Source: Pirellulales bacterium
GTDB lineage: Bacteria > Planctomycetota > Planctomycetia > Pirellulales > JAEUIK01
DNA: 64,000 nt
Assembly: GCA_019636335.1 (NCBI GenBank)
Contig: JAHBXR010000004.1
Location: 1-64,000 of the forward strand
Direction: 5' to 3'
Translations under genes and position numbers: made by a program
Notes under the pieces: generated by a model
What the model saw: only the letters and a program-made list of their open reading frames with translations
Told to the model about the DNA's origin: nothing
The model's database searches: none
Part shown: positions 22,366-25,353 of the stretch, piece after piece
How positions within the stretch are numbered: position 1 is the first letter of the stretch
How the letters are laid out: every line of letters begins with the position of its first letter

Positions 22366-23205
22366 CTAGCTCGGCGGTCCGAGCTGATCGATTTCGTAAC
22401 CGCGCGGATAACTGCGCCGCTGGACCTGGGTGAGCAGGCGCGGGTGACGTCGCGGAGGCAACCAGCGCACGGCGCCAGCGCGCAGACGAAGCAGGCCGTG
22501 GAGTAGCGGGCGTAGCCCAGGCAGGGGGGCACGATACGAAAGCGCCTCGCGCATGACGTCGTCGACCAGCGCGTCGACCATGGCGCCGGCGACGGGATGC
22601 GCGTAGCGCGGAAACCAGCTCAGGAAGAGGGCCCGCGTGGCGGCGCCGACGCGGCGATTGGTTTCGCAAGGCCGGATGCGATCGCGTTCGTAGCCGCGGT
22701 TGAAGCGATCGAAGGTGTCGAAGTCGGCCGGGATGTCGCGGATGCCCATGCGAGTGCCGATCTCGTACCAGAACCAGAAGCTGCCCAGGCGCTCCTGCTC
22801 GGTGAGAGGGCGCCAACCAAAGCGAGCGATCCAGCGTATAGGTTCGTAGATGAACGTGCTCAAGACGTAGAGATAATCGTCGTTCTGAATTTTGAAGCGG
22901 CCGTGGATTTCGTTCATCCTGCGGAGGGCCGCTCCGCCGCGCGGGCTGTCGTACCCGTGCTCGACGATTTCCGCCAGGATCAATTCGGTGTCGTCGTAAC
23001 GTTTGGCGGCGCGCTGGGCGAACTCGCCCGAGCAATCGAGGATGGCCGAGATCGTGGGGACGCAAAACGTCCGCAGCAGGGCCAACTCGAGCGAGCGTTC
23101 GAAGTCCCAAGGGAATTCGTAGGCGCTGCTCAGAAAGACAATTTCCTGATGATCTCGGCGCGGGTCGAGCGTGAGGATCTTGGCCAGAGCGGGCGAACGA
23201 ACCAT
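22366..23205 (-). CDS. DUF2236 / MpaB-type oxygenase family protein
   Basis: A 279-residue protein of the latex-clearing-protein/MpaB (DUF2236) family, haem-dependent oxygenases of uncertain substrate. Landmarks are SPRGGAALRRMNEIHGRF (conserved RMxxIHG) with NDDYLYVLSTFIYEPIRWI and GFWPLTEQE-like WRPLTEQERL. The start at 23205 removes a Pro/Arg-rich upstream extension that is not family-like. No signal peptide is visible. It is separated from the thioredoxin gene by about 280 bases and is divergent from rho. Confidence 0.75.
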   Translation of the reverse strand: MVRSPALAKILTLDPRRDHQEIVFLSSAYEFPWDFERSLELALLRTFCVPTISAILDCSGEFAQRAAKRYDDTELILAEIVEHGYDSPRGGAALRRMNEIHGRFKIQNDDYLYVLSTFIYEPIRWIARFGWRPLTEQERLGSFWFWYEIGTRMGIRDIPADFDTFDRFNRGYERDRIRPCETNRRVGAATRALFLSWFPRYAHPVAGAMVDALVDDVMREALSYRAPLPGLRPLLHGLLRLRAGAVRWLPPRRHPRLLTQVQRRSYPRGYEIDQLGPPS

Positions 23206-23425
23206 GGAGGGGCGGTCGCCCGGCTGGCGACTCGAGAGCGGGAGAAAAAACGTCGGACGAAACTCCGGACGACAAGGTTCAGGATAGCCGCGGCGGCGCC
23301 CGGTACCGAGGGGTGCTGGCGGGTGGGGGACCGCCCACCGATCGGGTGATCGGCACAACGCTTGCTGGCGGATCTGGGCGAGGCGGGCAGGGCTTGTTTT
23401 TCCCAATTCCCACTCGATTTCGTGC
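23206..23425. other. Intergenic DNA between the oxygenase gene and the rho promoter
   Basis: About 220 bases, GC-rich, with no gene or RNA structure that I can support. It should contain the promoter for the minus-strand oxygenase gene. Confidence 0.4.
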
Positions 23426-23453
23426 TTGACACGTTCCGAAACTTAACTAGGAT
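23426..23453 (+). promoter_or_regulatory. Sigma-70-type promoter for rho
   Basis: A perfect -35 TTGACA (23426-23431), a 16-base spacer and TAGGAT as -10 (23448-23453). Initiation near 23460 would give a leader of about 577 nt before the rho ATG at 24037. No other equally good promoter is seen closer to the gene. Confidence 0.65.
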
Positions 23454-23459
23454 TATCGT

Positions 23460-24036
23460 AGTTTTGATTCTGCCTACACGAGTTAGGCGCTACGGGGTCG
23501 CAAAGTAATCTTTGGCCCCGTCTCCCTGTCAGGAAGTGAGTTACAGGGGGAACAAGCATGGCGCCTTTGGGCACCGGCCTTCCCGGATTTGTGTTTCCGA
23601 CAGCCTCACGGTGAGTGGCTGTTGTTCGTGGGACAGGCCTGCCGTAGGTGGTTAATCTGCCCTCGTTGGCCTCAGTGCTTGGCGAGCTTGGCGTGACCCT
23701 TGTGTATTGGGTTGCGTGAGAGAGCCGCCGGCTTGTTGCCGCTTGGCAGCCATAAAATCCCGCGCGAAACCGCGCTGGGGTTCGTTCGATCCGTGCCAGT
23801 CGCCTTTGGTTGCGGCACGGCCACTCTGTCCTCGATTGCCAAGTCGTGGATGAGCTTTGATCTCTGAGCGAACAGGAATCGGACTCGCTCCGATTCCTCC
23901 ATCCTGCATGTTTGATGCAACGGCCGCCCCGGCGGTCGTTCCGACCCTCACGCGGGGCGTGCGCACCGCCCGTGTGGTTTGCCAACCAAGTTGCGCCAGA
24001 GTTATAGGGCCGGATTTTCTCCGCTGGTGATTCAAG
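23460..24036 (+). promoter_or_regulatory. Long structured 5' leader of rho
   Basis: From the predicted start point to the rho ATG there are about 577 nt without a long ORF. A strong hairpin at 23492-23521 pairs ACGGGG with CCCCGT and, inside it, AAAG with CTTT. A short RBS-equipped ORF follows at 23558-23614, ending inside a second imperfect hairpin. A third GC-rich stem lies near 23921-23945. Escherichia coli rho also has a leader with a leader peptide and autogenous attenuation, so a similar role here is plausible but inferred. Confidence 0.5.
23558..23614 (+). CDS. Putative 18-residue rho leader peptide
   Basis: The ORF reads MAPLGTGLPGFVFPTASR. AGGGGGA at 23545-23551 sits 6 bases before the ATG, a stronger ribosome binding site than that of rho itself. 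It directly follows the strong hairpin at 23492-23521. Its stop lies in a dyad (CTCACGGTGAG). It is too short to judge by composition, but the combination of position, RBS and structure is what a regulatory leader ORF would show. Confidence 0.4.
   Translation: MAPLGTGLPGFVFPTASR

Positions 24037-25353
<1,317 letters not shown>

Follow-up and report, generated by a model that had tools for sequence, protein, structure and literature searches.

What does the long region between promoter and start codon of a planctomycete rho gene do, and is it translated, folded, or acted upon by Rho itself? We examined such a region in a 64-kb stretch of DNA, here called the window, whose source was judged from the relatives matched to be a Pirellulales-like genome. 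The gene starts at position 24037, with a divergent upstream neighbor encoding an MpaB-type oxygenase. In the first-pass annotation it was called rho; its product is indeed a Rho, but a divergent second one rather than the canonical protein, since it scores 487 bits against TIGR00767, below the cut-off of 509, and shares 50% identity with the genome's canonical Rho, which scores 608 bits. This protein (Rho2) is without the N-terminal Rho_N-like segment that canonical Rho has. We take its ATPase motifs to be intact, as judged by eye against the E. coli Rho sequence. The parts of the transcription unit are as follows.

23426 to 23453, + strand: promoter TTGACA-16-TAGGAT, a sole sigma-70-type match, conserved in relatives
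23454 to 24036, + strand: long untranslated leader of rho2, taken as the distance from the conserved promoter to the start codon
24026 to 24030, + strand: Shine-Dalgarno sequence GGTGA of rho2; a GGTGA-type site lies directly before the ATG in many relatives
24037 to 25353, + strand: rho2 coding region (PF07497 and PF00006), for a protein of 438 amino acids with an N-terminal KKKK and an RG-rich tail

The canonical rho gene of the window genome lies at G000:C4:238526-239620 on the minus strand (locus G000:C4:237026-241120), some 190 nt downstream of a gene resembling coaE by eye. Matches to both canonical Rho and the RG-tailed Rho, about 50% identical to each other, were found in 54 of the 57 relatives searched. 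By these matches, two Rho genes are present in nearly every Pirellulales genome.

The good promoter and the leader of about 577 nt that had been proposed for this gene were both borne out. On both strands of 22900 to 24300, the promoter is the single sigma-70-type match, where shuffling leads to an expectation of 0.2. A TTGACA-N16/17-(-10) promoter was found in 147 of the 159 distinct Pirellulales rho2 loci versus 1 of 159 shuffled regions, the loci being distinct upstream regions of at least 1000 nt from two collections, scored for TTGACA/G with a fitting -10 element at 16 to 17 nt. Most families have TAAGAT as the -10 element, with AGTT about 8 nt further on; the element is TAATAT or AATACT in family f6 and GATACT in family f7. 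A similar distal promoter also precedes some rho genes of a sister order. The comparison across loci thus showed a conserved sigma-70 promoter at which transcription of rho2 is predicted to begin. This promoter always lies more than 280 nt from the rho2 start codon and none was nearer in the 147 loci, which gives no comparative backing to a start site much nearer 24037. Family f7 combines its promoter (TTGACA-17-GATACT) with a different leader, carrying a GTCGTC.. stem and CCGGAA..TTCCGG, yet has the same rho2 gene; the N-terminal tail of its Rho2 is longer.

From the end of the -10 element to the ATG, the rho2 leader of the window measures 583 nt (or about 577 nt when counted from a plausible start site), and the leaders of relatives range from 281 to 1215 nt with a median of 566. 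Because the promoter is conserved and always distal, the long rho2 leader is judged ancestral in Pirellulales. The leader in the window is also poor in A (15% A, 25% T, and 31% G), as are those of relatives (mean, 18% A), perhaps from strand bias.

Direct DNA similarity gave no match between the window leader and six relatives of its family, and the comparison therefore relied on promoter anchoring and on structure. Three hairpins are predicted in the first ~100 nt of the leader, and a further one near its 3′ end.

23456 to 23573, + strand: conserved 5′ structured element, matching models R1 and R3 (see below)
23472 to 23488, + strand: hairpin 1, GCCTA-(CACGAGT)-TAGGC; the homologous stem covaries in alignment A3 and in family f6
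23492 to 23521, + strand: hairpin 2, ACGGGG-TCG-CAAAG-TAAT-CTTTG-G-CCCCGT, predicted to be stable; the homologous stem covaries in A3
23522 to 23550, + strand: hairpin 3, CTCCCTGT/ACAGGGGG, from the predicted fold and inspection
23874 to 23898, + strand: predicted 10-bp hairpin near the leader 3′ end, at the place of the CGATTTTCGTC..GACGAAAATTGACTTCT hairpin of relatives, with uncertain homology

Hairpin 2 had been described as perfect-armed. It is present and predicted to be stable, but a TCG/G internal loop breaks its arms into ACGGGG/CCCCGT (6 bp) and CAAAG/CTTTG (5 bp); hairpins 1 and 3, which flank it, were absent from the first-pass annotation. The fold energy of the window leader is only mildly unusual (z, −1.8), and single-sequence fold z-scores of leader segments did not set the 5′ part clearly apart from the rest.

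For a two-stem covariance model, R1, we used 14 leaders picked once the motif had been seen, from families f17 and f13 together with close relatives unassigned to a family. The family of the window was left out of it, which makes the window an independent test. The best R1 match in the 64 kb is the window leader itself at 23456 to 23573 (18.5 bits; E, 0.0055), and R1 also has matches at the equivalent position in families f2, f4, f8, f14, f16, f18, and f19. When the structure was removed from that alignment to give a sequence-only model, R2, the leaders of the window and of families f18, f14, and f4 went unreported at an E value of ≤5, with other leaders reported down to 10.5 bits. Detection of the window by R1 and not by R2 indicated that base pairing is shared and not the letters alone. 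With the broader model R3, the window leader is the only match in its own genome; its score of 46.5 bits is not independent, because R3 contains the window sequence.

Compensatory change was then read from the alignments. In A3, which comprises 51 leaders aligned by R3 and, like A2, is fitted to the structure, changes on both sides were seen in 9 of 11 pairs, with 23 such cells versus 6.6 in shuffles; pairing was seen in 88% of cells, compared with 28 to 48% when one arm is slid. All 6 modelled pairs of the hairpin 2 stem show changes on both sides. A sequence-only alignment of 19 leaders of family f6 gave both-side changes in 5 of the 6 pairs of hairpin 1, which is 90% paired there versus 22 to 48% after sliding. 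Most relatives have GGCCC/GGGCC where hairpin 2 of the window has GGGG/CCCC, which is a compensatory change. RNAalifold yielded no consensus on the gappy A2 alignment. Across divergent relatives, the comparison shows stems 1 and 2 to be kept by compensatory change, and the covariance of the 23492-23521 stem, suggested earlier as a check, holds up in both the held-out R1 match and the both-side changes in A3.

Hairpin 3 is recognized by inspection. Many relatives have, after stem 2, a hairpin whose arms are unrelated in sequence; its single-sequence fold z averages only −0.7, and its alignment is too poor for covariation counts. Toward the other end of the leader, a second conserved hairpin, CGATTTTCGTC..GACGAAAATTGACTTCT, is common to families f4, f13, f17, and f19 about 120 to 190 nt before the rho2 ATG; the 10-bp hairpin of the window at that place is a different one. 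Its CTTCT reappears downstream of hairpin 3 in the 5′ element, within GCTTCTCGACC.

The free variation of the hairpin 3 arms and the variable leader length (281 to 1215 nt) would suit a passive array of protective 5′ hairpins followed by a long spacer, which stabilizes or insulates a constitutive mRNA and regulates nothing. We regard such an array as unlikely, as the conserved loop and linker letters and the 3′ element exceed the needs of a stability hairpin. Letters that are conserved and unpaired occur beside and inside the stems (GAGTTCTGCC, GAATCTT, and GCTTCTCGACC). They look like a recognition surface, and one could picture the 5′ hairpins binding a partner other than Rho, such as a small RNA, metabolite, or ribosomal protein, so that the leader would control rho2 in the manner of a riboswitch or in response to a protein; no C-rich stretch would be needed for this. 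On the coding strand of the window leader, however, no convincing intrinsic terminator was seen, nor was clear sequestration of the ribosome site in the rho2 leader.

The distribution of the element also bears on this question. When 246 Pirellulales genomes were searched with R3, there was one match per genome, and all 34 matches with E values of <0.03 lie upstream of rho2; for 3 of them rho2 was not at once evident on the contig and was confirmed by checking. Matches with E values of >0.1 were treated as chance, and the two weak ones inspected have no rho gene beside them. The element was sought elsewhere in the phylum, outside Pirellulales, and was not found. A search of Rfam gave no match at gathering for the window, with one chance-level match (E, 4), and no match at an E value of ≤0.5 for 15 related loci. 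Among the genomes compared, the 5′ element was thus found only in front of rho2, in a consistent genomic context. Most metabolite riboswitches differ from this element in not being confined to one gene per genome, and together with the missing terminator and sequestration this leaves a non-Rho ligand somewhat unlikely in our estimation.

Could the leader instead be translated? A candidate leader peptide, an 18-codon open reading frame (ORF) with a strong ribosome-binding site, had been proposed downstream of the hairpins.

23558 to 23614, + strand: ORF of 18 codons plus stop from the ATG at 23558 (MAPLGTGLPGFVFPTASR), judged not functional

Both the ORF and the purine-rich AGGGGG preceding its ATG are present, as control of read-through into rho by translation of the ORF would demand. 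But AGGGGG makes up the 3′ arm of hairpin 3 and would for that reason be hidden in the folded RNA. The ORF was absent from all 151 other leaders and so is not conserved among them, and ATG ORFs with a ribosome site in the first 300 nt are rarer in leaders than in shuffles (8.6% versus 16.9%). A leader-peptide attenuator, which calls for a conserved, translated short ORF, was rejected on the count of 0 of 151. On this sequence comparison, leader-peptide control is already refuted as a conserved mechanism, and we consider it highly improbable; the ORF has no conserved role.

The first-pass annotation had also drawn a comparison with the autoregulated rho of E. coli, and this needs correcting, as the E. 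coli-type Rho and the C-rich leader are found elsewhere in the genome. In the window genome, the sequence immediately preceding the canonical rho start codon is rich in C and poor in G, and the leader of this gene looks like a classical rut-type leader. By composition only, the best 78-nt C/G skew has a median of 0.40 in 13 canonical rho leaders versus 0.11 in 96 rho2 leaders (p = 2e-8), a comparison that is indicative because the start codons of canonical genes were assigned by a rule, and only genes for which it succeeded, the 13, were counted. The window leader has a C/G skew of −0.05, and its best 78-nt stretch reaches +0.24. With C exceeding G in canonical leaders, the rut-like signature was assigned to the canonical gene. 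An ordinary rut-based attenuator is accordingly disfavored for the window leader, which is not C-rich, unlike canonical rho leaders. An autoregulated leader of the E. coli type is likewise disfavored: the gene behind it is not canonical rho (50% identity; TIGR00767, 487 < 509), and the C-rich, G-poor rut stretch is missing (rho2 median, 0.11; window, 0.24).

Taken together, these comparisons indicated that the stretch is probably a conserved structured 5′ leader of the rho2 mRNA in Pirellulales, whatever part Rho plays. Since its hairpins are kept by compensatory change and occur only before rho2, we infer a cis-acting regulatory element, and the locus is best read as encoding a new RNA that regulates rho2 in cis. 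As for how it might act, transcription would start at the conserved sigma-70 promoter, and the first ~100 nt would fold into the hairpin chain. Rho2, whose RG-rich tail would suit structured RNA, or canonical Rho could then act on the long untranslated leader and limit rho2 transcription or mRNA survival, while the 5′ hairpins would set access as an entry or a protection site. Of the mechanisms considered, Rho-protein feedback of this kind is the most likely, although we put forward the Rho step itself only tentatively; autoregulation of rho2 is possible.

Feedback of Rho through the rho leader is known in E. coli and Salmonella (PMC6582626), and, as cited there, rho of Bacillus subtilis is under autogenous feedback through its leader. 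The rho2 leader resembles those of E. coli and Salmonella (attenuation; SraL sRNA) in being untranslated and in placing a control element ahead of a rho gene; it differs in belonging to a second, divergent Rho and in being structured rather than C-rich, the C-rich leader in the window genome belonging to canonical rho. The likeness to B. subtilis would be feedback through the rho leader, which for rho2 is a proposal; that bacterium has a single Rho, unlike the two-Rho Pirellulales, and no homologous element is known. Like riboswitches and ribosomal protein leaders, the element has covarying stems that are conserved and directly follow the promoter of a single gene, and it differs from them in having no detected terminator, sequestration switch, or Rfam match. 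Nothing on planctomycete rho leaders or the second Rho was found in the open literature searched. Control through a rho leader is already known; no description of an order-wide structured RNA apparently reserved for a second Rho turned up in the openly available papers covered by the search.

Termination of transcription has hardly been studied in planctomycetes. The element, being absent from Rfam, could be proposed as a family, and the rho2 leader implies a control circuit that is directly testable. More speculatively, and with considerable doubt on our part, the two Rho systems of Pirellulales may be wired differently: a C-rich leader would serve canonical rho, and the mRNA of the RG-tailed Rho would carry a dedicated structured RNA receptor, through which a Rho protein would recognize structure and not a C-rich rut site. 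A second Rho in nearly every Pirellulales genome, together with its own conserved RNA leader, suggests a division of labor between two terminators.
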